This document shows positions 3,917 to 42,792 of a DNA stretch of 43,727 bases, piece after piece. The stretch covers positions 1 to 43,727 of the forward strand of contig QMSP01000015.1 of NCBI GenBank assembly GCA_003650925.1, written 5' to 3'. The stretch is from Thermoprotei archaeon (GTDB lineage Archaea; Thermoproteota; Thermoprotei; QMSL01). Each line of letters starts with the position of its first letter. Position 1 is the stretch's first letter. Both the position numbers and the translations under genes were made by a program. The notes under the pieces were generated by a model, which saw nothing but the letters and a program-made list of their open reading frames with translations, was not told where the DNA came from and made no database searches.

Positions 3917-4030
3917 TCACAGTTTATCAATCAAATACTTCTCAATATGCCCTTCACCGTACTGGCAAGAATGACACTCTCGCATGCGTATTTCAAGCTC
4001 CGATAGGAATTTAGTGCCATAATCGAGCAC
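3917..4030 (-). CDS. Possible 37-residue ORF after the orphan AbrB gene
   Basis: A GTG-initiated frame begins 7 bp after the AbrB stop codon and reads LDYGTKFLSELEIRMRECHS followed by CQYGEGHIEKYLIDKL. It carries a C-x2-C pair but no second pair. It could be a small partner protein, or a leftover of the toxin that normally sits in this place. Evidence is limited to position and an amino-acid make-up that looks coding, so treat it as tentative. Confidence 0.3.
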   Translation of the reverse strand: MLDYGTKFLSELEIRMRECHSCQYGEGHIEKYLIDKL

Positions 4031-4037
4031 ATACGAC

Positions 4038-4259
4038 CTAGGCCTCAAGCCTCATTTCCTCCTCCTTGGCTTTCCTAACAATCTCCGATACCCTACCCTT
4101 CAATCTCACACGCTTGGGCACATAGGGTCTCAATATCAACCTATCTCCCTTCAACTCTAAGATAACTGACATGCCCTCCTCCAATCCTAATGCCTCTCTT
4201 AACCTCTTGGGAATAACAATGACCCCCTTCTTCCCAATCCTCGTTACAGTCACATCCAA
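4038..4259 (-). CDS. Orphan AbrB-type DNA-binding protein
   Basis: This 73-residue protein is almost entirely an AbrB domain: VTRIGKKGVIVIPKRLREAL, then GLEEGMSVILELKGDRLILR, and a short basic/acidic tail ending KAKEEEMRLEA. It matches antitoxins of VapBC pairs or stand-alone AbrB regulators. No PIN toxin gene follows; only a 37-codon frame and then the converging PIN gene are found. It may be an antitoxin that has lost its toxin or an independent regulator that cross-talks with the neighbouring AbrB-PIN pair. Confidence 0.8.
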   Translation of the reverse strand: MDVTVTRIGKKGVIVIPKRLREALGLEEGMSVILELKGDRLILRPYVPKRVRLKGRVSEIVRKAKEEEMRLEA

Positions 4260-4415
4260 GATATCACCTGGCAGTACTTGTTAGATGACGCTCATAAGTT
4301 TAACCAGACCCAAATTATGATTTGGGATATTCTTGTGGTCGGACTAGGCCTGTGGTCAGCTGAGACTTTAGAAAGTGTTCGGATAGATGTCAAGATCGAG
4401 GAATTCACATCAGCA

Positions 4416-5513
4416 CTATGATGTGTGCTTAATCAGAAAGTACCTCCTTGCCTGTGAGATCATGTCATAAGCCAAAGCGAACAACTCCTCAGGACAGCTC
4501 ATATAGAAGACGCCAACCTCATAATTCTTAAGCAGACTCCCCTTAGTAATATTAGCTGAGCCTAAGAAGGCAGAGCCCATAGAGGAACAGGAGAGCTTGG
4601 CATGAAGCCTATCAACAACATAAGCCCTAACTTCCACATCATACATAGAAGCACATCTTTTCACATGATCAATATCCCTCTCATTCCTCAACACGATGAT
4701 TATGTTCTCAAGCTTCTTGACATCATCCATAGGTTTCATAACATATTCAAGCATGCTATTAACCCAAGGCGATATCAGGATGAACTCATCCTTAGAATCT
4801 AACAAAGTCTGCTGATAAGCAACAAGAGCAGTGGGAGCGAAAGGAGCATTCCTGAGGACAAGAGTCCTAGCAACATCAATTCCTTCAAGAAGCTCAAGTC
4901 CCTCAAAGCTTAGATAAATTGAAGAGCCATCGATATCAACAAGTCCCAGCTCCCTGAGAAGAGGCACAAAGAAATTCCTAACAACAAAGCTATTATAAGG
5001 CTTTGCAAAAGGAACCCGCCTCCTACCACCCAAGGCCTTAAGCAAACCATATCTCTTCATCTTCATGCTATACTCCTTCATCTCACCTCCCAAGTCCCTT
5101 ATGATATCCCTGACCCTGACCTTCTTTCTACCAATATATCTAACAAGAGCCACAAAAGGTCTCCACTTGCACAAGACCCTGATTAAAGACCTCCTGAAGG
5201 ACTCATCATCCCTCATACTAGCGTACAATATGTGACATGTATTAGTAGGAACATATTCACCATCACCACGTATGCTTATAAGCCCCAAATGCCATAGAAG
5301 ACGCTCGATATAGTAAGCCTCACTAGCTCTCCTAAACCTAGGAGCATATCTCTCAATCAAAGCTCCTAAGGCATCTCGAGTAAGCTTACCCTTCTCGACC
5401 AGAGGCTTAATCACACACCTGAGCAAATCAAGACTGAACCATGCTATGCCATACGATTGAAGAAAGATCATCGAAGCCTCAAGATAGTTCATGAAATGCT
5501 TGCTACTACTCAT
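4416..5513 (-). CDS. Phospholipase-D-like protein with one HKD-type motif
   Basis: The 365-residue protein has two parts. Residues 1 to about 215 are helical with wHTH-like stretches (SEAYYIERLLWHLGLISIRG, LVDIDGSSIYLSFEGLELLE). Residues about 230-350 form a PLD half: DEFILISPWVNSMLEYVM, then RLHAKLSCSSMGSAFLGSAN. The latter is a HxKxxx...GSxN motif, the single-copy form seen in PLD-family nucleases that work as dimers, such as BfiI-type enzymes, and in helicase-associated nucleases. Substrate is unknown; a DNA-directed defence role is an inference. It stands alone, with no helicase or methyltransferase beside it. Start ATG 5513. Confidence 0.7.
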   Translation of the reverse strand: MSSSKHFMNYLEASMIFLQSYGIAWFSLDLLRCVIKPLVEKGKLTRDALGALIERYAPRFRRASEAYYIERLLWHLGLISIRGDGEYVPTNTCHILYASMRDDESFRRSLIRVLCKWRPFVALVRYIGRKKVRVRDIIRDLGGEMKEYSMKMKRYGLLKALGGRRRVPFAKPYNSFVVRNFFVPLLRELGLVDIDGSSIYLSFEGLELLEGIDVARTLVLRNAPFAPTALVAYQQTLLDSKDEFILISPWVNSMLEYVMKPMDDVKKLENIIIVLRNERDIDHVKRCASMYDVEVRAYVVDRLHAKLSCSSMGSAFLGSANITKGSLLKNYEVGVFYMSCPEELFALAYDMISQARRYFLIKHTS

Positions 5514-30841: not shown

Positions 30842-31600
30842 ATGACTGTCAAGGACCGTCAACTTGAGCTATTCAAGGTAGTAATGGATATCTCAGCAGA
30901 AAAGGGTCCTCTCAGTATCTACGCTATAGCCAAGGAAGCCTCTGAAAGGCTCGGCGAGGATATGCATAAGGTCAGGATGCGTATAATGCGTCTCATAGAT
31001 AAGTTGGAGGCCTTAGGCATGGTGAAAGTGACTCGTGGTCCAAGGAATGCCAAGTTAGTTGACTTATCTCCCAAAGGCTTGGGTATAGATGTACAATTTA
31101 GGTTTTACAAGCTTTTCAAGCCATGCACTTCGAGAGATATATTAACCTTGACAGGCATGTTATCCTGCTACAAAAGAGCTACCCTAAAGAAACTCGTTAG
31201 GGAGGGGTCAATACCTGGGATAGCTCTAAAAATGCCTGAGCTCGCTGAGAAAATACTAAATGCTATAAAGAAAAGCCTAGAGGATAGAGAATTCGAATAT
31301 GAAATGGAACTTACTAGTGATGCCGACATTATAGCCTACAATGAAGTAGCAGACTGGATAGCAGATATCATGAGTGACATTAGCACGGAAGAGCTATATA
31401 GCTCTACTCTAAATCCTCAATTCCTAAAGCAACATTTAATTGCTATATTCAAGGAGGCCAATCTTACAGAGGAGGACATTAGGCTTTTAAGTTATACAAC
31501 TAAGGAGGAGCAACGTTACCATATGTTCTTGGCTAAGATATGCGGTACGATTCATGAAGCTCTTAATGAGCTTAAGGAGGAGTCTATACATGAATGCTGA
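30842..31600 (+). CDS. Winged-helix regulator, probable antitoxin of RelE
   Basis: From ATG 30842 the product has 252 residues. Residues 1 to about 75 form a MarR-like winged helix: ELFKVVMDISAEKGPLSIYA, IAKEASERLGEDMHKVRMRI, then LEALGMVKVTRGPRNAKLVD. The rest is helical (SRDILTLTGMLSCYKRATLK; LKQHLIAIFKEANLTEEDIR). The frame opens upstream at 30806, but the TATA-like element at 30811-30820 supports the ATG. The gene overlaps the RelE toxin start by 11 bp (ATGAATGCTGA), indicating coupled translation. A large wHTH protein is an unusual RelE partner, and a role as antitoxin and repressor is inferred from position. Confidence 0.7.
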   Translation: MTVKDRQLELFKVVMDISAEKGPLSIYAIAKEASERLGEDMHKVRMRIMRLIDKLEALGMVKVTRGPRNAKLVDLSPKGLGIDVQFRFYKLFKPCTSRDILTLTGMLSCYKRATLKKLVREGSIPGIALKMPELAEKILNAIKKSLEDREFEYEMELTSDADIIAYNEVADWIADIMSDISTEELYSSTLNPQFLKQHLIAIFKEANLTEEDIRLLSYTTKEEQRYHMFLAKICGTIHEALNELKEESIHEC

Positions 31601-31887
31601 GTGGAGGATTGTTGTCACTAGGAGCCTCCTTAAGGAGCTTAAAAGAAGAGGTATAACATCGAGGATTCTGGGAAAGCTAAAAGAACTTAGTCAAGAGTTA
31701 AGTGAAGAACCTGAGAGGGTGCTTGAAGCGCTTATGAAGGAGCCTACAATCTTTGATCTCGAGGGATTTAAGGTGAGAAGATTGAGGATAGGTAGTTATC
31801 GCCTCTTCTACATAATTGATCATGAAAGGAGGCTTGTCATCTTTTTTTGATGTTAAGCCTCGTGAGAGAGCTTATAGGAGAAGATAA
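31590..31887 (+). pseudogene. relE: RelE-family toxin, frameshifted at a run of seven T
   Basis: The reading WRIVVTRSLLKELKRRGITS, then FDLEGFKVRRLRIGSYRLFY and IIDHERRLVIFF is a RelE/ParE-type toxin (ribosome-dependent mRNA interferase or gyrase-type fold). The zero frame stops at TGA 31848-31850, right after T7 at 31842-31848. With six T the frame continues DVKPRERAYRR to TAA 31885-31887, which is the expected RelE C-terminus. So the gene is one T out of frame. Polymerase slippage on the T-run could restore it in part of the transcripts. Ribosome binding site AAGGAGGAG lies upstream of ATG 31590. The gene is otherwise complete. Confidence 0.82.
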
Positions 31888-31896
31888 TGTACTAGT

Positions 31897-32046
31897 CTAT
31901 TCCTTCTTGCTCTTGGTCTCTTCATTTAGCTCCTTAATTTCAATAAGCTCCTCTTTACCTTCAATGACTTTTAATACTCGCCTAAGCATCTCTTCATCGA
32001 ACTCTTCAATGTCATGAATCTTAATGGTAAGAGGCTTCTCAACCAA
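31897..32046 (-). CDS. Small acidic protein, 49 residues
   Basis: A TTG-initiated minus frame reads VEKPLTIKIHDIEEFDEEML, then RRVLKVIEGKEELIEIKELN and EETKSKKE to TAG. It is highly charged and may form strand-helix-strand. It is convergent with the relE gene, with about 10 bp between the repaired relE end and its stop. I see no Shine-Dalgarno motif of strength. Coding character looks good, but the gene is small and its family unknown. Confidence 0.45.
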   Translation of the reverse strand: MVEKPLTIKIHDIEEFDEEMLRRVLKVIEGKEELIEIKELNEETKSKKE

Positions 32047-32160
32047 GCCTTAACACCTTGTAGAGATAGGTATTCTAGACTTTAATACTTTGCGATATTA
32101 TGAAGAAAAGATTTGTGTTGGGAGCCACGAGGTTAACACTATTATGCAACAACTCCCTGG

Positions 32161-32552
32161 ATGCGAGAGATACGCATTATGCCTGAGCTCTCAGAAATAT
32201 CCGCGGTGATGTGGCTTATACTACAAGAGTTAAGGGCTAGGCTTAGCCCTATGATATACTTCCTATCACCTTATGGCTTAATTGCATGTGAGAAGTTCTT
32301 GAAGGCTTCTGAACTTTTATCCAAGTCAATATCTCAAAGAGCTTAAGCAATACATGAGTGATGAGGGATTAATCGAGCGAGAGACTGGAGCATGTCCATG
32401 GACAGACTATCAGCGTTAAGGATGATCCAGCAAAATGCCTCATACGCTACTTCGAAGGCTCGCATAAGGCAGGCCTATTTGTTGATAGCAAGTATGTTGA
32501 ATTTGAATCACTAGCGAATGGTCTTGAGCAAACTATTGGAGCAAAGCACTAA
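32161..32552 (+). pseudogene. Broken gene of unknown family, two frameshifts
   Basis: ATG 32161 opens REIRIMPELSEISAVMWLIL, then QELRARLSPMIYFLSPYGLI and ACEKFLKASELLSK to TAA 32344-32346. A second frame runs on through YLKELKQYMSDEGLIERETG to TAA 32417-32419 and a third through KCLIRYFEGSHKAGLFVDSK and YVEFESLANGLEQTIGAKH to TAA 32550-32552. The three pieces follow each other in register and would make a protein of about 130 residues. No family recognised. Confidence 0.5.
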
Positions 32553-32794
32553 CGAAGCTTAAGATGAGGTCATAGTCTTAAACATTCATGTATACATAAT
32601 TATACTACAATTATTGTGCCTAGTAGTCTAGATCAGGCCATAGCTTCAAGGTAAGAACGCTCATGCTACAAGCTTAACTATTTCAGTAATCATAAAAATT
32701 AGTTAAGGCTATCTGTCTCTTCTAGGCTTCCTGGTTATGCTGAGTGTCTTGGGAAGTGAGTTTGTCTCTCTTCCTATCAGCTACTTGTATGGGC

Positions 32795-33034
32795 TTATAC
32801 AATGTATTCTTGTGCTCTTGCCTTAGTCTTCACCTTCTCTAAAGCCTTCTTAGTAAGCCTAGTCTCCTCCACATATTCCTTGTAGAGCCTCTTAGCCTCT
32901 TCTAGTATAGCATTCCTAAGGATATTTGTTGCCACTTCATCGATAATGTTTGAGGCATCTTTGCTACACCTGGCCACTATTATTCCAGCTAGCTTCATCC
33001 CTATCGCAATATGGACCGTATCCCTAAGCCTCAT
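32795..33034 (-). CDS. Hypothetical helical protein, 79 residues
   Basis: I take ATG 33034 (MRLRDTVHIAIGMKLAGIIV) as the start because GGTGGG precedes it; the frame is open to 33121 with a poorly protein-like extension. The product continues ARCSKDASNIIDEVATNILR and ends in a basic coiled helix (TRLTKKALEKVKTKARAQEY). It is predicted helical and soluble. Family not recognised. A further frame after its stop (IQVADRKRDKLTSQ) could be its out-of-frame tail. Confidence 0.5.
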   Translation of the reverse strand: MRLRDTVHIAIGMKLAGIIVARCSKDASNIIDEVATNILRNAILEEAKRLYKEYVEETRLTKKALEKVKTKARAQEYIV

Positions 33035-33318
33035 ATTCCCACCTACTCGAGACTTCACCTCCTTGGAGCTTGGGCTATTCCCAAGGAAGAAAAGTACTAG
33101 AGGGGGGATAAAAATCTTCATTAAGCATAGTATAATTCGATGGTGTGACCAGAAATCAACTCCCCATTAATTTTCATTTTGCCAGGTATTAAAAATATCT
33201 ACGAAGACGTGATATTTGCAGTATCATCACACATCGCTACCGCCAACAAATTTTCTAGTGCGTGCATTCGCACGTACCGACTTATTTACCTCTCTCTACT
33301 GTATTATTGTTACATAAG

Positions 33319-33438
33319 TCCCTCAAATATGAACCTCACTTCATAGCGGCACTAAATATTGCGAGAGGAGTATTCAAGAAATCGAATAATCCCTCGCTTG
33401 AAGGCATAGGACATGGGGAGGGAAAACTTAGACTATGA
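33319..33438 (+). pseudogene. Possible C-terminal remnant of a TnpB-like transposase
   Basis: The frame reads SLKYEPHFIAALNIARGVFK then KSNNPSLEGIGHGEGKLRL to TGA. The core HFIAALNIARG recalls the end of the RuvC domain in IS605-type TnpB proteins, where the last catalytic Asp is followed by A-x-NIA. Here the acid is His. There is no start, no zinc finger and no flanking repeat in view. The call is weak and rests on a short motif. Confidence 0.3.
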
Positions 33439-33450
33439 GTAGGCTATAAT

Positions 33451-34029
33451 TTACAAGTCTATATGTCTTGAAAATCTGTTTACATAATATTTTATCGTGG
33501 TCTCATCCAAGACTTTAGGTCCTGAGGTAATGAAGCTAATAATATCCTCAGGCTTAAGTACGATAGCATGCTTGGTATCACTGGGCACTTCTGCACTATC
33601 AACGTTTGTAAGTATTGCATGAGTATAGACTCTTCCTCCAAGAAGCTTTCTAATAATCATAGCATGTCTTAAAGCCTCCCTCTCCAAGTTCATAATCTCT
33701 TTAGGACTACCATCCTCCCTAATTAAGACCTGCTTACTATCCCTAATCACAATACTGCGACCACGGATAGTCTTAGTCTCAATAACGAAAATGCCTGTAG
33801 GCCCTATTACAACATGGTCAGCATCACCACTAGGAAGCTTAACATTATGAAAGGCATAATATTCATCAGAAAGAGACCCCAAGATCTTACTAATAATCCC
33901 CTCATCCCTATACCTCCTTCAAGATTCCTCAGGCTTAGTGAGTATTGCCACTATGAATAGGCAGATAATAATTGGTAAGATTATGCGAAGAGGTATGAAA
34001 GACCACAGAGACCACAATATCCATAACAT
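33451..34029 (-). pseudogene. Membrane-anchored NERD nuclease-related protein, broken by TGA
   Basis: From ATG 34029 the frame reads LWILWSLWSFIPLRIILPII followed by ICLFIVAILTKPEES, a membrane helix. It then meets TGA at 33921-33919 and continues RRYRDEGIISKILGSLSDEY into the NERD domain. The NERD core is complete: GDADHVVIGPTGIFVIETKT with the Asp and the E-T-K of the PD-(D/E)xK-like site, then VYTHAILTNVDSAEVPSDTK. A TTG at 33882 could start a shortened NERD protein lacking the first conserved helix. The single in-frame TGA makes it a probable pseudogene. NERD proteins are linked to DNA processing. Confidence 0.72.
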
Positions 34030-34101
34030 CCATAGTTAAAGTAGTAAGGAATTTTAGGAAGTTTTCAGTAGACTTGTTTTCGACGATTAGCGAGTATAGG
34101 A

Positions 34102-34254
34102 GTGGGATTACTAGCCCTACTCGAGGAGGGTTTGGGCGATCACTTGGCAGTCTCAGAGGGACGCTATGAGCAATTCACCATCACAGTCCTCCTGGCCGAG
34201 CTAAGCCACCTCGAGTACTTGGGCTTGTCGAGCAAGAAGTACGACCTGACCTAA
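34102..34254 (+). pseudogene. Short fragment, possibly wHTH-like
   Basis: A GTG-started frame reads GLLALLEEGLGDHLAVSEGR, then YEQFTITVLLAELSHLEYLG and LSSKKYDLT, ending at TAA 34252-34254. The next frame continues ERFKAWQATSSQGLGFN, so the gene may extend by frameshift. The helix-strand pattern could be part of a winged helix. Too little is left to name a family. Confidence 0.35.
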
Positions 34255-34326
34255 TGAACGCTTCAAGGCCTGGCAAGCTACATCCAGCCAAGGCCTAGGA
34301 TTCAATAAGGATTACCCATAGGCTAA

Positions 34327-34746
34327 CTACCAGTGTTCTGGTTCAGCACTAGACCTGACAATGGAAGGCTCATCACTAACATGCCTCCACAGGCCTCTCC
34401 TAAAACTCACGACAATGATCCCCAACTCATCGATCACATAGTCGCTTAAGAGAACCTCATCCACATATGGATTCATCATTAGATTGCACACGATCTCGGA
34501 CTTCACCTCAGAGTCTACAAGCAACTGCAGTCTTCCACTACCCAAGATATGCACTGCAACCTCGCCACCAGCAGTAAAAGTTCCTACGGATTCTACCTCT
34601 CTACGAGGCCAAAGTCTCAATAGACGGGCCACCTCCATGGGGATACAGATATCTGGTTCCTCGCTTTCGAATCCAGAGTTCACTAACGCCGAAGTTGTGA
34701 CTTGACTTCCACTGGCAATAATCCTTACCTTGACCCTCACTCTCAT
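34327..34746 (-). CDS. Retropepsin-like (clan AA-like) protein with Asn-Ser-Gly in place of Asp-Thr-Gly
   Basis: This 139-residue, strand-rich protein contains TTSALVNSGFESEEPDICIP then MEVARLLRLWP. The position and context match the catalytic D-T-G loop of retropepsin-like aspartic proteases, but with Asn for Asp. Later parts are VGTFTAGGEVAVHILGSGRL and NPYVDEVLLSDYVIDELGII. It ends FRRGLWRHVSDEPS. A paralogue with the same plan (VNTGF, GIWRF) lies at 41775-42197. Each follows a small basic gene, here at 34748-34879. Protease activity is unlikely without the Asp. A role as part of a two-gene module is inferred. Confidence 0.65.
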   Translation of the reverse strand: MRVRVKVRIIASGSQVTTSALVNSGFESEEPDICIPMEVARLLRLWPRREVESVGTFTAGGEVAVHILGSGRLQLLVDSEVKSEIVCNLMMNPYVDEVLLSDYVIDELGIIVVSFRRGLWRHVSDEPSIVRSSAEPEHW

Positions 34747-34747
34747 C

Positions 34748-34879
34748 CTACTCTACCCTCACGAACTTCATCCTCTTACCTGTCTTCCTCATAAGCCCTA
34801 TGAACTTTATCCTCCTCCTCTCTCTCAGCAGTTTCTTTCCCAGCCTTATCGCTCTGAGCCTCTCCTCATAATCAACCAT
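34748..34879 (-). CDS. Small basic protein paired with the NSG protein
   Basis: The 43-residue product reads VDYEERLRAIRLGKKLLRER, then RRIKFIGLMRKTGKRMKFVR and VE. It is strongly basic. The stop (TAG) is followed after 1 bp by the ATG of the retropepsin-like gene, so the two are translated together. An equivalent small gene (IGYMRIKEIKGLMKIEVIPI) precedes the paralogue at 41775. Short length and lack of a family limit the call, but tight linkage in two places supports it. Confidence 0.6.
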   Translation of the reverse strand: MVDYEERLRAIRLGKKLLRERRRIKFIGLMRKTGKRMKFVRVE

Positions 34880-35055
34880 TCAAACATCCCCAACTACTAA
34901 GTGAGTCAAGATAGAATTAACCTTTTCCCATATTTCCAAACACTAGGGACAATTACATTTCTCCTCAGGGGAGATGGAGGGAAGAGCTGGAGCACTTGGC
35001 TATTGAAAACATGCAAATGGCATATTCATTACTGCTATTTTTACAGGAATAACCC

Positions 35056-35314
35056 ATGATACTTTTCAAAAGAAAGAAGAAGCTCATCAAGAAGGCCGCA
35101 AAGGAGACCGAGAAGAGATACCGAAAGGTCCCCGATATGTTCAGCAAGGGCGGGTTTGAAGAGGCCTACAAGGAATCTCTAGAAGCCTACAGGAACCTGA
35201 TGGAGCTCTCTGTGAAGTTTTGCTAATGGTACTGACTTTGAGAAGCTGTTGGCAGGTGAGGGATTTGGCTCACTGTTGATGACTAGACTGGTGGAGATTC
35301 TTCCATCTTCCTAG
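35056..35314 (+). pseudogene. Small basic-helical protein with a +1 frameshift at TTTT
   Basis: ATG 35056 opens ILFKRKKKLIKKAAKETEKR, then YRKVPDMFSKGGFEEAYKES and LEAYRNLMELSVKFC, stopping at TAA 35224-35226. With one T fewer in the run 35218-35221, the frame continues ANGTDFEKLLAGEGFGSLLM to TRLVEILPSS and TAG 35312-35314. The joined protein would have 85 residues. The very basic N-terminus suggests nucleic-acid or membrane-surface binding. No family recognised. It overlaps the next minus-strand gene at its 3' end. Confidence 0.5.
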
Positions 35315-35501
35315 CCCACTTTTTAGCCTCCAAGCCTAGCCTTTCAGCCTCCTCACTCAGATAGGGCATCTTATCCAAAAGCTCAAGAGGATTAATCCTC
35401 CATATGATGCGTTCATCACCAATCTCCACTACCAATACCTCCTCATCAGGGCTGAGGAGCTCGGAGACTTTGCCAGTTCTAATTCTCAACTGGATCACCA
35501 A
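35283..35501 (-). CDS. Hypothetical protein, 72 residues
   Basis: The product begins with strands (VIQLRIRTGKVSELLSPDEE; VLVVEIGDERIIWRINPLEL) and ends with a helix (SEEAERLGLEAKKWARKMEE). This strand-strand-helix plan with an acidic tail resembles small antitoxins of the AbrB or Phd size class, but no signature motif is present. There is no toxin beside it. The 3' end overlaps the broken basic gene by 32 bp in convergent orientation. Confidence 0.5.
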   Translation of the reverse strand: MVIQLRIRTGKVSELLSPDEEVLVVEIGDERIIWRINPLELLDKMPYLSEEAERLGLEAKKWARKMEESPPV

Positions 35502-35780
35502 TTTAGAAAACAGCCCGAGCTATATTTGCTTTCCTGAAGAATTAGTCAGACTACTTTCAGTGTCATTCATGCTGCTCTCATGGCTACACTTTACTTAATG
35601 ACTATGCTTGAAGGTATTGAGCATTCGCTATCTATTTAGATGCGATTAGCACCATGGCTTCTAACCTCAGGAGAAGGGCTAGGTGCAAGTTCAGGAGTTT
35701 ATCCTGAGCCTGCTGATGCAAAGCTATGAGTTGTGGAGGCTAATCCCCTAGACGCAAAATCGTCATGATTCGCTGAAGCC

Positions 35781-36182
35781 CTAAATCAAGGACTTCCTTG
35801 CGGTTTTGCTTCTTCCTTTAATCTCACTTGCCATGTTCTCGATATCGCTTATATGCATTTCCACTATGAACTCTCTCCACATTGGATCATTTCTCCACAA
35901 TTTTATACATTCCATCTCAGCCAGGATATGGGCTTCCTCAGCATTATAGCCTTGAGCCCTAAACTTGATCTCGGCCAGTTCATGATGTAGGATATACTTC
36001 TCCCACTTTTCACTAATCCATATCTCGTTCAATGGGATTCCAAGCTTATCAGCTGCGGGCGGCTTGATGTGCTTACCATGATAAATGACGTTATAGCATG
36101 CATTGTAATCCTTGATCACCTCATGGGGAACATATCTAATCTTATAGCCCAAGTTATTGGCTTCGGCTCTTGGGTCAATCAA
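35781..36182 (-). CDS. Putative zinc-binding protein with HHELAE motif
   Basis: The 133-residue protein contains EKYILHHELAEIKFRAQGYN followed by AEEAHILAEMECIKLW. H-H-E-x-x-E with a further His 14 residues on resembles zinc-metalloprotein motifs of the ImmA/IrrE or minimal gluzincin type. Its N-terminal part (RAEANNLGYKIRYVPHEVIK) is strand-rich. Proteins of this kind in archaea are uncharacterised; proteolysis is possible but not shown, since the spacing is not canonical HExxH. It stands alone on the minus strand. Confidence 0.55.
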   Translation of the reverse strand: MIDPRAEANNLGYKIRYVPHEVIKDYNACYNVIYHGKHIKPPAADKLGIPLNEIWISEKWEKYILHHELAEIKFRAQGYNAEEAHILAEMECIKLWRNDPMWREFIVEMHISDIENMASEIKGRSKTARKSLI

Positions 36183-36372
36183 AATGCTTCACCAACTAGT
36201 ATTATAGTTCAGGGAATCCTATAATTACTCCGTAATGCTAGCAGGCCTGCCACTAGTCATGCAGGATGGATTATGATTGCCCTTTCTCATTTCTAGATAA
36301 CTACTCCCCTATTCGCTGTCATTCTTGAACTGCCAGATGCATGAGAGAAGGAAATCAAAGTTTACATGAGGT

Positions 36373-37404
36373 TCAGCTTTGATACCATTGAGTTAAGTAT
36401 CGTTGTAGAAGTCCTTTGTATGTTCCCGCATAGGCATACCTCAAGAGTACGTATTTCTCCTTGATCATAATCCTTTTCTTCTCTTCGTTAAGAAGGGGAT
36501 TTCTCTTAGCCTCAAGAATCATGCCAGCTCTCCAATTATTTCTCTTAACTGAATCCTCAAGGACAAGTAGACCTATTGGAGTACACTTCTCCACAATACT
36601 CCTTATGCCTTCAACATCTTCCCTCTTAGGATAGCAGAGGTAGACTTTATCAAACACACCGCCTGAATAGTTGGTGTTCATGTAATTGAAGTATAGTGGG
36701 TTCGCAAGATACATTATTGCTTCTCCAATATCTTCATGAGGAGGTGCTGGTTCAAGTCTATCTCTAACCCTTCTATAACCCTTAACCTCAAAGCCAAGAA
36801 CCTCATTCTCCCTAATCGCAATTATATCGGCGTCAGGAGTGAATAAGTATGTAGGCTCTTCGCCAGCATTCATGTTATGCCTAACATTAATGAAAACCTC
36901 ATAACCATCCTTCTCAAGTAGAGAGGCAAGATTGCTCAGGAGATTGCTTTCAGTTAAAGTTGATGGGACACTGGCCCCTTTTCTTATACTTATCTTTAAT
37001 GAGTCAAGAAGAGTAACTCCTTTTCCGACAAGAGCTTTAAGGAATTCTAATACTTCATCGCTCCATCCAGCCCATATGACCTCATCATTATACAGGACTA
37101 GGAGGGAGTAGTGCAGATATATGTATCCTGAACGTGATTTAAACTTCCTTGCTACTGTCTCGACATAGACCTTAATGCCCATACTGCACAAAATCTCAGA
37201 ATTCTCGCGGATTAATCTACTCTTGGGTTTAAGCATCTCTTCATATATCCTTTCGGTTTTCACCTCATCAACATACCACACCTCATAAGGTATTCCATAA
37301 TAGTACCTTATGAGTTCTAACAACCTCTTAGCCTCTTCGAACTTTCTCCTATTATCCTCATACTTTAAGAGGGATTGGTCTATGACTAGGACCATCCTGA
37401 ACAT
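36373..37404 (-). CDS. PD-(D/E)xK nuclease-like protein
   Basis: The 343-residue protein carries TESNLLSNLASLLEKDGYEV with a conserved Glu154, then LFTPDADIIAIRENEVLGFE with Asp191/193 and VKGYRR, giving E206-x-K208. The set E...PDxD...ExK is a complete PD-(D/E)xK site. The N-terminal 140 residues include a PLD-like or Rossmann-type segment (RLLELIRYYYGIPYEVWYVD; LHYSLLVLYNDEVIWAGWSD). The C-terminal part is helical and basic. No methyltransferase or helicase is adjacent, so it is not part of an evident restriction system. Solitary defence or repair nuclease is the likely class. Confidence 0.7.
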   Translation of the reverse strand: MFRMVLVIDQSLLKYEDNRRKFEEAKRLLELIRYYYGIPYEVWYVDEVKTERIYEEMLKPKSRLIRENSEILCSMGIKVYVETVARKFKSRSGYIYLHYSLLVLYNDEVIWAGWSDEVLEFLKALVGKGVTLLDSLKISIRKGASVPSTLTESNLLSNLASLLEKDGYEVFINVRHNMNAGEEPTYLFTPDADIIAIRENEVLGFEVKGYRRVRDRLEPAPPHEDIGEAIMYLANPLYFNYMNTNYSGGVFDKVYLCYPKREDVEGIRSIVEKCTPIGLLVLEDSVKRNNWRAGMILEAKRNPLLNEEKKRIMIKEKYVLLRYAYAGTYKGLLQRYLTQWYQS

Positions 37405-37694: not shown

Positions 37695-38078
37695 TTATGG
37701 ATTCAAGGAGGCTGAGGATGATTTCTGCTGTATTAGCCTTTTCACATGAGTGAGGAATTCTCTTAATGATGGAGTTGTAAGGGGTTCTATTCTTCCATCT
37801 CTGTGTCTATGGTGGGGATGGGTTGGTATTTCTGGATGGTGTGGTCTATTGTTCCACCATTCTTCATAACTTCCTATTCTTAGGTAATAGCCATAGGCTA
37901 TGATATCGCTTCCTCTTAGATATTCTCGCAATCTGAGGATGACATCCCTTTCGATGATTACGTCCACGCTAAGATACTCTGTATCATCGTCTATGCGGTG
38001 CTCTCTAACTGTGACTCTTGGGTTGAGGTTCTTTAATATGGATTCGATGAGTTCTAGGACGTAGTTTAGTCTTGTCAA
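37695..38078 (-). CDS. TumE-like toxin, last gene of a protease operon
   Basis: The 127-residue product has DVIIERDVILRLREYLRGSD, IIAYGYYLRIGSYEEWWNNR and PHHPEIPTHPHHRHRDGRIE. The R-P-H-H and P-H-H-x-H elements occupy the place of the Asp-Asn-x-x-H / F-P-x-H-x-H region in TumE proteins. It is a divergent relative of the TumE-type gene at 11468. A helical tail (REFLTHVKRLIQQK) follows. It lies 27 bp downstream of a TumA-like gene, and both lie behind a serine protease gene on the same strand. The assignment to the TumE family is by pattern and is less sure than for the first copy. Confidence 0.65.
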   Translation of the reverse strand: MTRLNYVLELIESILKNLNPRVTVREHRIDDDTEYLSVDVIIERDVILRLREYLRGSDIIAYGYYLRIGSYEEWWNNRPHHPEIPTHPHHRHRDGRIEPLTTPSLREFLTHVKRLIQQKSSSASLNP

Positions 38079-38105
38079 GAAGTCCTAAGACCTCCTGTGG
38101 CTTCT

Positions 38106-38426
38106 CTAGGTCTTCTCTATGATTCTGAGAAGTCTTTCATATTTTTCTTTAAGATATACATACTTAGGCCATGCCAGGTCTACTTCTGGTCTGTCTAATT
38201 CTCTTGTTTTGAAGATTTCTTCTAGCTCTTCTATTGAGCTCACGTTTAACTGCTTTGCAATGTCTAGTAGTTGAGCTCGGATTTGTGCTAGTTCTTCTTC
38301 TATCTGTTTGCGCCTGATGATTATTACATATGTGGGTTCCTCTTTCCTCTCAGTCCACTTTTCGACTAGACTTTTCAGGTTTATTTTCTTCATGATCCAA
38401 TATTCTGCAGGGGATAGTTCTCTCAT
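38106..38426 (-). CDS. TumA-like antitoxin, middle gene of a protease operon
   Basis: The 106-residue protein is helical. The C-terminal two thirds, EEELAQIRAQLLDIAKQLNV, SSIEELEEIFKTRELDRPEV, and YVYLKEKYERLLRIIEK, follow the same plan as the antitoxin at 11842-12129: a hairpin with S-S-x-E-E-L and a final Leu-rich helix. The N-terminal 35 residues differ and lack the helix-turn-helix-like start of the other copy. It begins 4 bp after the protease stop and precedes the TumE-like gene. A regulator or antitoxin role is inferred. Confidence 0.62.
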   Translation of the reverse strand: MRELSPAEYWIMKKINLKSLVEKWTERKEEPTYVIIIRRKQIEEELAQIRAQLLDIAKQLNVSSIEELEEIFKTRELDRPEVDLAWPKYVYLKEKYERLLRIIEKT

Positions 38427-39533: not shown

Positions 39534-39938
39534 TCATGCTAGGTCACGAGGATGTCTATATTTGAGACCAACAATTGTACTGTACGCCTTCTCATCAAAG
39601 CTCACAAGCTCCAAATCTTCAACCAAAGCTACAGCAGCGTGCAGGCTATCGAAATACGTGAGGCCATGCTGTGTCCTGAGCTTATGGGCCTTAGCGAAGT
39701 GTAGAGGCCTAGGCTTGACTATCCGGATTTTGTACTGCTCCAATGCGCTATTCAGCTTACGCCAAAACATGATATAGTCCTTAACAACTATGACCCCAGA
39801 CTTGATCAACAAGTCCATCTCAATGAGCGCGTATGGAGACAAGGCAATTCTGTGTTCTGCAAGTATCTTCCTTGCGATACTATGACCGGGATCCTCAGGA
39901 TCCATGGCTGCAATAAGCATATCGGTCTCAACAAGCAT
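39534..39938 (-). CDS. vapC: PIN-domain toxin (VapC-like RNase)
   Basis: The 134-residue protein begins MLVETDMLIAAMDPEDPGHS, where Asp6 is the first catalytic acid. It continues with YALIEMDLLIKSG (Glu), LTYFDSLHAAVALVEDLELV (Asp) and SFDEKAYS (Asp). The ETD in place of DTN or DTS at the start is a known variant of archaeal PIN toxins. The remaining metal-binding acids are present, so activity is plausible. The gene overlaps its AbrB antitoxin by one base (TGATG). Confidence 0.85.
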   Translation of the reverse strand: MLVETDMLIAAMDPEDPGHSIARKILAEHRIALSPYALIEMDLLIKSGVIVVKDYIMFWRKLNSALEQYKIRIVKPRPLHFAKAHKLRTQHGLTYFDSLHAAVALVEDLELVSFDEKAYSTIVGLKYRHPRDLA

Positions 39939-40192
39939 CAGCTCCTCCTCTCCATCTCCTTCATTAGCTGAGTGTATGCGATCTCGCTCAATTTAGAAGG
40001 CTTAACAGAGGCCTTCACGCGCACCTTTATAACTAAGTCGGACAGTTCATCTAGAGCGTCTCTAACAGGCTCCAGCACAATCCTACTACCTTCAACTCTC
40101 ATACTCACAAACCTTCCCACACCTAACATCTCCCTTACATCACTAGGTATGGTCACCCTACCTTTATCGTCAACACGAAGGATGCGTCTCAA
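39938..40192 (-). CDS. vapB: AbrB-type antitoxin of a VapBC pair
   Basis: The 84-residue product begins ILRVDDKGRVTIPSDVREML, then GVGRFVSMRVEGSRIVLEPV, a complete AbrB domain. A tail (LSDLVIKVRVKASVKPSKLS) would contact the PIN toxin. The first codon is the ATG at 40192, preceded by a GGAGG-like run on the minus strand (from TACCTCC at 40199-40205). It is translated before the toxin, the usual order. Confidence 0.85.
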   Translation of the reverse strand: MRRILRVDDKGRVTIPSDVREMLGVGRFVSMRVEGSRIVLEPVRDALDELSDLVIKVRVKASVKPSKLSEIAYTQLMKEMERRS

Positions 40193-40333
40193 TTGACATA
40201 CCTCCTATCATTAGGCAGAAAGCCCACTAATAAGTTTTCCCATATAAAATAAGTGGGACATCAATTCCTCGGTCTACTCATGGTTCTATCACAAAGTTGG
40301 GACTTTTTATAGATAAGCTAATACATTATATCT

Positions 40334-41134
40334 ATGGATATCATGAGCAGGATTAGGAGGAGAGGGAGAGATCATAAGGAGAAGCTAGTTGACTTACTTC
40401 TCCTATCCTACCTGATCATAGATGCGTATAGTAGGGGGAAGGCCATCAGAGAGGAGACTAGGCTTCAGAAGCTTGTGTTTCTTGCTGAGAGAATGATGCT
40501 TGCTAGAAAGATTAAGGCCTTTAACTATAACTTCGTTCGTCTGATCTTCGGGCCTTATTCTGATGAGCTGCGAAGGGATCTGGCTCTTCTACTGGAATGT
40601 GGCATATTACGTGATGATCCTCGTGAGGGGTTGGTTCCTACAGAGAAGGGTTTGGAGCTTGTGAAGCTGATGAATGATGTCTTGCATAGACATGGGGAGG
40701 TCATTGATATAATACATAACGTTAATGAAGAGTATGCTGATATTCCGCTTGATAGACTCCTTGAATATGTCTATAGTCTGAGGAGACCTCTTAAGGGCCC
40801 AAGGATGAGAATCAGGGATGTGAGGATAAGGACACCATTGTTGAAGAGAATCACCAGGGAGAGAGCTCGTCTTGTCTTCGAAATTCCCGGTGAAGCTATA
40901 AGGATTCTAGAGGTATACTTCGACCCTGACGTGGAGGAGATAGTGCGTGAGCAGGTTAAGGGGTATGAAGTCCTATTGCTGAAGCATAGAGGCGAAGCAG
41001 GATATACTGCTATTGTGCCTAAACTAACGGGGTGTATAAGCGAGGGAGTTACAAAAGAAGAGGCCTTGAAGAATTTATCTGAAGCGATAGATTTATACCT
41101 AGAGGTGAGGCAAGAAGAAATCTGTGGCAGGTAG
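40334..41134 (+). CDS. hicB: Panacea-HicB fusion, antitoxin of HicA
   Basis: The 266-residue protein has two domains. Residues about 10-125 resemble the Panacea/SocA-type antitoxin domain: TRLQKLVFLAERMMLARKIK, FNYNFVRLIFGPYSDELRRD and LVPTEKGLELVKLMNDVL. Residues about 205-262 are a HicB domain: YEVLLLKHRGEAGYTAIVPK, LTGCISEGVTKEEALKNLSE, AIDLYLEV. HicB normally neutralises HicA, and Panacea domains neutralise many unrelated toxins, so a protein with both is striking. The stop overlaps the HicA start by 11 bp. No DNA-binding domain of the usual HicB type is visible besides the Panacea helices, which could take on that role. ATG 40334. Confidence 0.75.
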   Translation: MDIMSRIRRRGRDHKEKLVDLLLLSYLIIDAYSRGKAIREETRLQKLVFLAERMMLARKIKAFNYNFVRLIFGPYSDELRRDLALLLECGILRDDPREGLVPTEKGLELVKLMNDVLHRHGEVIDIIHNVNEEYADIPLDRLLEYVYSLRRPLKGPRMRIRDVRIRTPLLKRITRERARLVFEIPGEAIRILEVYFDPDVEEIVREQVKGYEVLLLKHRGEAGYTAIVPKLTGCISEGVTKEEALKNLSEAIDLYLEVRQEEICGR

Positions 41135-41411
41135 GGCAGCGAAATTACCAGTACTCTCAGGTGATGAACTAAATAAGGTACTCGCCGACTTATGCTTTAG
41201 ACACGTCAGGACTAAGGGATCACACAAGGTGCTAGAGAGGGGAAAGCACATCCTAGTAGTTCCTTTGCATAGAGAGCTAAAAAGAGGAACCCTTAAGGAG
41301 ATAGTTAAGGCCTATGCTAGGATTCTGAATATATCGTACGAGGAGGCGAGGAAGTTGCTAGTCGATAGGAGACTTAGGAGGAGATGTAGAAGCTTTCTTT
41401 GTCCTAGGTAA
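41124..41411 (+). CDS. hicA: HicA-family mRNA interferase toxin
   Basis: The product (95 residues, GTG start at 41124) contains LPVLSGDELNKVLADLCFRH, then VRTKGSHKVLERGKHILVVP and LHRELKRGTLKEIVKAYARI. G-S-H with the catalytic His and the double-stranded-RNA-binding-type fold are the hallmarks of HicA. A basic tail follows (RRLRRRCRSFLCPR). HicA usually has about 60-75 residues, so the tail is an addition. It overlaps the upstream Panacea-HicB gene by 11 bp. No damage is visible. Confidence 0.83.
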   Translation: MAGRAAKLPVLSGDELNKVLADLCFRHVRTKGSHKVLERGKHILVVPLHRELKRGTLKEIVKAYARILNISYEEARKLLVDRRLRRRCRSFLCPR

Positions 41412-41641: not shown

Positions 41642-41827
41642 ATGGGGAATACTTTGGAGAAGAAGGTCCCCATGAAGAGGAGAATAGGCTACATGAGGAT
41701 TAAGGAGATAAAGGGGCTCATGAAGATAGAAGTCATCCCCATAAGCAAGGAGGAGGCTATGCGTCTGCTGAGAGGTGAGAGCATTGCCAGTCAAGGTAAG
41801 AGTGGAGCTCAAGTCGAGAAGAAATAG
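41642..41827 (+). CDS. Small basic protein paired with the NTG protein
   Basis: The 61-residue product reads GNTLEKKVPMKRRIGYMRIK, then EIKGLMKIEVIPISKEEAMR and LLRGESIASQGKSGAQVEKK. The frame extends upstream, but the TATA-like element at 41611-41620 favours this start. It overlaps the retropepsin-like gene by 53 bp, so expression is coupled. The same arrangement, small basic gene then retropepsin-like gene, occurs at 34879-34327. Function unknown. Confidence 0.6.
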   Translation: MGNTLEKKVPMKRRIGYMRIKEIKGLMKIEVIPISKEEAMRLLRGESIASQGKSGAQVEKK

Positions 41828-42197
41828 CAGGACGGTTACAACCACAGCGTTCGTCAATACAGGCTTCATGAGCGAAACTCCCGATATAGCTCTTCCACCC
41901 ATTGTAGCAGAGCAACTTGGATTGTGGCCAAGACCATGTGATGCGCTCCTAGTAACTCTTGAGACAGGAGGAGGAAGTATAGAAGCCTACATAGTTCCTC
42001 AGGGGCTAACGGTTAAGGTAATAGCTCAGGATAGGACAAGCAGAGAGGTCATAGCTAATGCCCTTGTAAATCCTCATCTTGATGATGTACTTATAGGCGA
42101 TGCCCTTGCCGAGGAGCTAGATATTCAGATTCTATATCCCCGTAAGGGGATATGGAGATTCGCTGATGAGGAAGTAATGCGTAAGAGTGAGGACTAG
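41775..42197 (+). CDS. Retropepsin-like (clan AA-like) protein with Asn-Thr-Gly in place of Asp-Thr-Gly
   Basis: This 140-residue protein reads VTTTAFVNTGFMSETPDIAL then PPIVAEQLGLWPRP, LVTLETGGGSIEAYIVPQGL, NPHLDDVLIGDALAEELDIQ and PRKGIWRFADEE. It aligns from end to end with the protein at 34327-34746, including the NTG/NSG loop, the N-P-x-x-D-(D/E)-V-L motif and the final G-(I/L)-W-R. Both carry Asn where an active aspartic protease has Asp. GTG start at 41775 lies inside the upstream small gene. It is likely a regulatory or binding protein with a protease fold. Confidence 0.65.
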   Translation: MRALPVKVRVELKSRRNSRTVTTTAFVNTGFMSETPDIALPPIVAEQLGLWPRPCDALLVTLETGGGSIEAYIVPQGLTVKVIAQDRTSREVIANALVNPHLDDVLIGDALAEELDIQILYPRKGIWRFADEEVMRKSED

Positions 42198-42312: not shown

Positions 42313-42792
42313 TTACCAGCATCTTCTCACATATTCCTTCAGGATTTCCACTAACTTTAGAGCATCCTCTCTATGGACTTTAAAACTGTCTTTATCGAGG
42401 AAGTTATGGTAGAAGTTTGCATGTAGTCTCTTGCACATGGCGAAGAGCCTGAATATCTCTACATCGCCAAGTTCCCTAGCTATGTTGTTGATAATGATGT
42501 TATAGTCCCTGTGAGTATAATGCTCCCAGCCTTTAAGCTCGGCGATTGCATTTAGGAGGGAGCAGATAGCGCCCCAGTATTTCTCACTAGCCTGTACTAG
42601 GTCGCCCTTTTTGTAGTAATCCTCAGCCTCACTTAGATATTTCTCGTGGAGCTTCATGTAGGCTAAAGCTCTATCCCTAGGGTCGACGATTAGCTTCTCT
42701 ATAAGAAGTTGCAGGATATCCTTATTCTTTCTACTAGCTTCCTTCTTCAAGATGTGATATATCTCCTCGGGAACCTCGATCTTCACCATCAA
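42313..42792 (-). CDS. PaREP1-family protein
   Basis: The 159-residue protein has the PaREP1 pattern: ALAYMKLHEKYLSEAEDYYK, KGDLVQASEKYWGAICSLLN, AIAELKGWEHYTHRDYN and MCKRLHANFYHNFLDKDSFK. It has an N-terminal RHH-like extension (VKIEVPEEIYHILKKEASRK). PaREP1 is a helical, HEPN-like family expanded in Thermoproteales and neighbouring groups; its function is not known, though a toxin-antitoxin role has been suggested. It is uninterrupted and lies alone on the minus strand. Confidence 0.85.
   Translation of the reverse strand: MMVKIEVPEEIYHILKKEASRKNKDILQLLIEKLIVDPRDRALAYMKLHEKYLSEAEDYYKKGDLVQASEKYWGAICSLLNAIAELKGWEHYTHRDYNIIINNIARELGDVEIFRLFAMCKRLHANFYHNFLDKDSFKVHREDALKLVEILKEYVRRCW

Follow-up and report, generated by a model that had tools for sequence, protein, structure and literature searches.

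The window, a 43,727-nucleotide stretch of the genome of a Thermoprotei archaeon, contains two ORFs on the forward strand whose positions overlap by 11 bp (41124 to 41134). The first, panA-hicB (40334 to 41134), starts with ATG and is a single open frame of 266 codons; the second, hicA (41124 to 41411), starts with GTG and encodes a 95-residue, dsRBD-type toxin (PF07927) that is predicted to cut mRNA. An earlier note, made from the bare sequence, had described this overlapping pair; both ORFs were found in the window as given, and the sequence motifs named for the antitoxin are present in the translation of ORF 40334-41134. Three parts can be distinguished in the antitoxin: a Panacea-like N-terminal module at residues ~1 to 150 (40334 to 40783), which matches PF13274, PDC-M19A, and the DarTG fold; a linker at residues ~151 to 200 (40784 to 40933), recognized by a linker profile and ending at an FDPD junction; and a short HicB domain at residues ~201 to 266 (40934 to 41131), consisting of strands followed by one helix, as judged from HicB_lk and UPF0150 matches and from DSSP. 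A TATA-like box, TTTTTATA (40304 to 40311, plus strand), was read by eye about 26 bp 5' of the ATG, a spacing that fits a leaderless archaeal transcript. A scan for a terminator and promoter 3' of hicA and a search for a ribosome-site pattern contributed nothing to the present reading.

The operon lies in a cluster of toxin-antitoxin genes (37695 to 38426, 39534 to 40192, and 42313 to 42792), whose members include a TumE toxin (PF20126), preceded on its 5' side by a small ORF of no assigned class, and a PaREP1 gene; a PIN/MazE-like pair is divergent from the Panacea-HicB operon. Two ORFs that look alike by eye, at 34327 to 34746 (minus strand) and 41775 to 42197 (plus strand), resemble retropepsin-type proteases; Pfam finds nothing at E ≤ 0.01 in the former and, in the latter, just DUF1390 (E = 0.2). 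Farther upstream, a small ORF at 31554 to 31850 (plus strand) appears RelE-like by eye, and the region from 31554 to 37404, with ORFs at 33451 to 33882 and 36373 to 37404 (both minus strand), contains a NERD nuclease (PF08378, E = 1.5e-14); a further ORF there resembles a restriction enzyme, though weakly (E = 0.0099). This region looks like a defense island.

The HicB-HicA pairing can be read from the window alone. Pfam HicB_lk_antitox (PF15919) matched residues 219 to 258 of the antitoxin (E = 4.9e-6) with 27.1 bits, which exceeds the family cutoff of 27 bits by 0.1 bit, and UPF0150 also matched in the C-terminal part. The product of ORF 41124-41411 matched PF07927 at E = 2e-10, with 41 bits against a cutoff of 27. 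The C-terminal HicB domain and the HicA partner proposed in the earlier note are thus both above their Pfam cutoffs. In the full-length AlphaFold model, DSSP assigned strands at residues 200 to 208, 211 to 218, 224 to 227, and 235 to 239, and a helix at residues 241 to 264; this order would fit a partial RNase H fold, but the C-terminal stretch of solo HicBs is absent. Alignment with 12 solo archaeal HicBs likewise showed that the fused domain is shorter and does not have the C-terminal stretch present in all of these.

The Panacea label requires relatives, since SocA_Panacea (PF13274) matched the window protein on its own weakly, at E = 0.1 (14 bits against a cutoff of 25.7; residues 44 to 147), and did not come up when the whole genome was searched with Pfam. 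PF13274 was found at E ≤ 0.01 in 14 of 30 relatives that span the full module, the best of which, L004, lies above the cutoff (30.3 bits, E = 8.7e-7); the window protein shares one alignment and one tree with these PF13274-matching members. The PADLOC profile PDC-M19A matched residues 40 to 148 of the window protein at E = 5.2e-7, and a DarG profile matched it weakly. The window protein and the Bathyarchaeota relative L063 were modeled with AlphaFold (pLDDT 88.8 and pTM 0.83 for the former, pLDDT 90.7 for the latter), and each model was compared with the top-ranked PDB chains from Foldseek after realignment with VIA-align. A chain of the Mycobacterium tuberculosis DarTG complex, 7yk3, came first in both cases, with a Z score of 10.7 for the window model (7yk3_D, 141 residues, 4.2 Å) and 11.5 for the L063 model (139 residues, 3.3 Å); the runners-up scored 7.7 and 7.3, respectively. 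The matched chain is probably DarG rather than DarT, because it is 187 to 188 residues long and the DarG profile matches weakly at DarG positions 170 to 229. In a plain Foldseek search of the PDB, the window model found nothing at E ≤ 0.001, and the best 50 matches listed did not include DarTG. The window protein found no match in a PDB sequence search; a 30-row profile of the family found marginal matches only, mostly to winged-helix regulators and designed proteins. Foldseek against viral models also gave nothing at E ≤ 0.001, and the top-ranked entries were uncharacterized Sulfolobus virus proteins (best E = 1.5e-3). Judged by family sequence and predicted structure, the N-terminal module is Panacea-like, convincingly through its family, so that the Panacea-like N terminus that the note had read from motifs was borne out by way of relatives and is weak in the window protein alone. 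The source genome encodes a second Panacea protein (L001:1390-1932, minus strand, contig C8 of genome G000), which is above the Pfam cutoff at 35.4 bits in the genome search and 37 in the scan; it is accompanied by a convergent 221-residue ORF.

We searched 201 related genomes for homologs of the antitoxin. One full-length homolog was identified, in G166 (37% identity, E = 9.4e-41); in G132 and G162 the homology covered only residues 13 to 202, and the remaining matches were shorter ones to the N-terminal part or, in many cases, to the HicB end alone. The full-length homolog, from "Candidatus Calditenuis fumarioli" (L061, the same locus as G166/L003), is an intact fusion of 245 residues whose HicA gene begins 3 bases past the stop codon; its HicB match reaches 35.1 bits. 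A third fusion, in a Njordarchaeote (L066), adjoins a HicA gene and is split into two open frames by a frameshift at a T run that may be genuine or an assembly error. Panacea-HicB forms thus number three, and the "Ca. Calditenuis" gene is the single intact one apart from that in the window. All three partner HicAs share the GSH motif. A single-sequence scan of genome contigs for close homologs found none. Matches were obtained in 28 plasmid and 10 phage records, none covering 80% of the query; those listed (the best 20 of the 28 plasmid records and the 10 phage records) are to the HicB end, except for one Haloarcula plasmid that matches residues 42 to 148 of the window antitoxin. The concern that the fusion might be an annotation join of two genes falls away, because it is one open frame and recurs beside HicA.

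Profile searches were carried out in 398 genomes of the same phylum, 6 individual genomes, 227 genomes of the Njordarchaeote's phylum, 392 of the Halovivax phylum, 256 of the class of G132, and 44 of the class of G166; these sets overlap partly, and E-value limits differed between them. The tally is based on 154 loci (the best hits of each search), in which the profile matched 103 distinct ORFs; 30 of these ORFs spanned the whole module, the split Njordarchaeote gene being excluded from the 30. In 22 of these 30, the ORF directly downstream on the same strand encodes a RelE-like protein with a Cys4 ribbon, one of which (L097) is missing one of the four cysteines. HicA occupies this position in two, the window and "Ca. 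Calditenuis." The others comprise one locus (L036, identical to L067) where the zinc-ribbon RelE-like ORF is convergent, one (L071) with an unclassified downstream ORF of 120 residues, one (L037) without an ORF of 55 to 170 residues at this position, two located at contig ends, and one (L117) in which the antitoxin runs into an apparent toxin end. At L067, the Panacea antitoxin (3989 to 4630, plus strand) faces the RelE-like ORF (4627 to 4965, minus strand), and the two do not form an operon. The antitoxin frame L117:1444-2160 ends in residues identical to the toxin end of a near-copy, L118 (compared frames, 1489 to 2184 and 1165 to 1485); L117 appears to have lost most of its toxin gene by a natural deletion that spared the antitoxin.

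Across the zinc-ribbon RelE-like toxins (n = 24), three cysteines are invariant and the fourth is present in 90% or more; 8 of the 24 match Pfam ParE_toxin at E ≤ 0.01. Such Cys4-ribbon RelE/ParE-like toxins are paired with Panacea antitoxins in Bathyarchaeota, in Asgard archaea, and in one haloarchaeon; examples are L063:4611-4952 and L065:4391-4720. In the L063 antitoxin, the common part is followed by a helix at residues 184 to 198 and by a tail, modeled at low confidence, at residues 203 to 212. We read the tail of the antitoxins without HicB as RelB-like from its sequence, not from a match in a database. ORFs resembling transposases, all of one type by eye, lie beside several Panacea-RelE loci (L004:170-1384, L063:2621-3733, L069:2243-3157, L079:1521-2657, and L132:2515-3633), one of which is on an IMG/VR contig, and mobility of these loci is possible. 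Proteins of ~320 residues that match the Panacea profile and have a longer architecture occur in many Asgard genomes (G411 to G439 and others, e.g., L103 to L113). A 435-codon frame at L024 was discarded as a relative, as it resembles a peptidase.

A linker profile built from only the 28 members without HicB scored 32.6 bits with the window protein (residues 156 to 199), 16.7 with the Njordarchaeote protein, and 16.2 with the "Ca. Calditenuis" protein, against a maximum of 4.1 bits among 900 shuffled sequences. The part common to all of these antitoxins therefore extends to about residue 200, at FDPD, beyond which the HicB forms have HicB and the rest have a helix and a tail. A profile of segment 178 to 200 alone did no better than shuffled sequences.

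A midpoint-rooted tree of the N-terminal module (31 rows) puts all three HicB forms inside one clade (support, 95/86) of 12 rows, 9 of which are without HicB. The window and "Ca. Calditenuis" proteins pair at 89/70, and the Njordarchaeote fragment is placed elsewhere within the 12-row set. A single clade of the three fusions is not rejected (p-AU = 0.449) and is unsupported; the best tree requires two changes. This nesting makes it look as if the HicB forms arose from the RelE-paired family, in one event or two; as the tree is midpoint rooted, the direction from RelE form to HicB form leans additionally on how rare the latter is. The position of the HicB forms among nine members without HicB suggests that tail and toxin were swapped jointly at one junction. 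In several archaeal operons hicB lies 5' of hicA (e.g., L009, L020, and L025), so one recombination could have carried in both. The second HicA match in the source genome is incomplete and lies at the edge of a contig, so a donor hicBA was not seen there. In the earlier note Panacea had been taken as an addition to an antitoxin that already had its specificity; the relatives point the other way, to a Panacea antitoxin that acquired HicB, along with a new toxin gene, in place of its RelB-like tail.

Taken together, these comparisons lead us to favor, as probable, a reading in which the Panacea-linker half is independent of the toxin, HicB blocks HicA, and the locus was born when a hicB-hicA cassette replaced an earlier tail and toxin gene. 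On this reading the pair would be a type II toxin-antitoxin operon in which the HicA toxin comes from the second gene and its antitoxin from the first. The C-terminal HicB piece would bind and block HicA, and the Panacea-linker module, presumably without specific contact to HicA, would hold the antitoxin together and carry out a toxin-independent task, most likely sensing a trigger or controlling the operon. In the proposed history, a hicB-hicA cassette replaced the RelB-like tail and the zinc-ribbon RelE-like toxin gene after the FDPD helix of the linker, both parts perhaps being moved by one recombination. Since relatives carry the same N-terminal half with another end and another toxin, this half looks like a reusable chassis and not one specific to a single toxin. 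The suggestion that Panacea guards against another toxin fits this ancestry, given the relatives paired with RelE-like toxins, but does not fit the present locus. We rank a chassis, sensor, or regulator that is not toxin specific first among the possible roles of the module, a DNA-binding autorepressor second, and a second neutralizing surface third. A broader proposal, which we put forward tentatively, is that Panacea-linker serves in archaea as a toxin-agnostic sensor chassis into which cassettes of neutralizer and toxin plug after the FDPD helix, under the same trigger. If so, one recombination would convert a RelE-type toxin system to a HicA-type system with its trigger unchanged, the locus would count as a class of HicA locus not yet listed, and it would constitute a natural experiment that parts sensing from neutralization in Panacea antitoxins.

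Panacea might instead be a DNA-binding autoregulator that replaces the DNA-binding domain missing from the short archaeal HicB and represses the operon, comparable to the Phd/YefM domain of hicBA class 5. The domain layout parallels class 5, and short HicBs without a DNA-binding domain are described in the available text of the same source (PMC10865869). Winged-helix repressors of the CggR, MntR, MarR, and DtxR types came next after DarTG in the fold comparison (Z about 6 to 7.6), although Z scores under 8 are unspecific, and weak Pfam matches to HTH_45 and CggR_N were found in two and one of the 30 members, respectively. The helix at the recognition position (the third) is, however, acidic: its net charge averages −1.6 across the 30 members and is −2 in the window protein, and that of the wing region averages −0.6. 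The upstream repeats are unremarkable (one perfect 7-bp pair, one 9-bp pair at 89%, and a 75% palindrome), and upstream inverted repeats are absent in two of three relatives inspected. We regard this role as rather unlikely; the DNA binding offered in the earlier note gains no support from the charge check, itself indirect, despite the fold matches to winged-helix repressors.

It is less probable still that both halves neutralize, whether because Panacea also contacts HicA or because HicB is a mere anchor and Panacea does the blocking. Panacea directly blocks some toxins (in the available text of PMC8832971 and PMC10440598), and the nearest fold is a chain of a toxin-antitoxin complex, DarTG. 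Against this, most relatives pair the same module and linker with zinc-ribbon RelE-like toxins, the C-terminal end alone varies with the toxin, and solo HicBs partner HicA without Panacea. That the locus is a relic or a sequencing artifact, either a false merger of two adjacent genes or a decayed, nonfunctional locus, is very improbable: a frameshift interrupts one of the three fusions and the Panacea similarity of the window protein itself is weak, but the 266-codon frame is open throughout, a distant lineage has an intact fusion with HicA at 37% identity, the GSH motif is retained in three of three HicAs, and the model is confident (pLDDT 88.8).

A Panacea-HicB antitoxin beside HicA is apparently unreported; modular PanA antitoxins and hicBA loci are already known. 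The literature searched held no report of HicB joined with Panacea or DUF4065, the available text of the PanA surveys (PMC8832971, PMC10440598) mentions no HicB fusion, and neither the 14 classes into which Gerdes sorted HicA contexts in 2024 nor the available main text includes Panacea or SocA (PMC10865869). In the survey text available, HicBA escaped prediction; some PanA proteins are described there as having separate neutralizing parts (Phd-C, PAD1, and ZBD) with Panacea as an accessory, for which a sensory role is proposed, and the role of Panacea where another part blocks the toxin is treated as an open question (PMC10440598). Since evolution has swapped toxin and blocker and kept Panacea, natural pairs would allow sensing and neutralizing to be tested separately. 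The known range of HicA contexts grows by one arrangement with this locus, which also draws attention to widespread archaeal Panacea antitoxins with zinc-ribbon RelE-like toxins.

Among known systems, PanA proteins with Phd-C, PAD1, or ZBD/MqsA likewise combine Panacea and a toxin-specific part on one chain, paired with a toxin gene (PMC10440598); here the specific part is HicB and the toxin HicA, in contrast to those that the available survey text describes. Class 5 hicBA loci, as the available text presents them, are alike in antitoxin-toxin order, in an N-terminal extra domain on HicB, and in gene overlap (PMC10865869), but their N-terminal Phd/YefM is replaced here by Panacea-linker, and the Pfam scan did not match Phd/YefM. 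In classes 1 and 2, according to the same text, HicB is small and without a DNA-binding domain, short as it is here, and the gene order of class 2 is identical; HicB in these classes is solo, however, and is C-terminally longer in the aligned archaeal examples. The N-terminal module resembles DarG of DarTG in fold (Z = 10.7 and 11.5 to 7yk3 chains), whereas the window antitoxin is without a macrodomain in the Pfam scan, is not accompanied by DarT, and has HicA as its partner. The archaeal Panacea-linker antitoxins paired with RelE-like toxins have the same N-terminal module and linker as the window protein and form one tree family with it; they differ in having a short, apparently RelB-like tail and a Cys4 RelE-like toxin in place of HicB and HicA.
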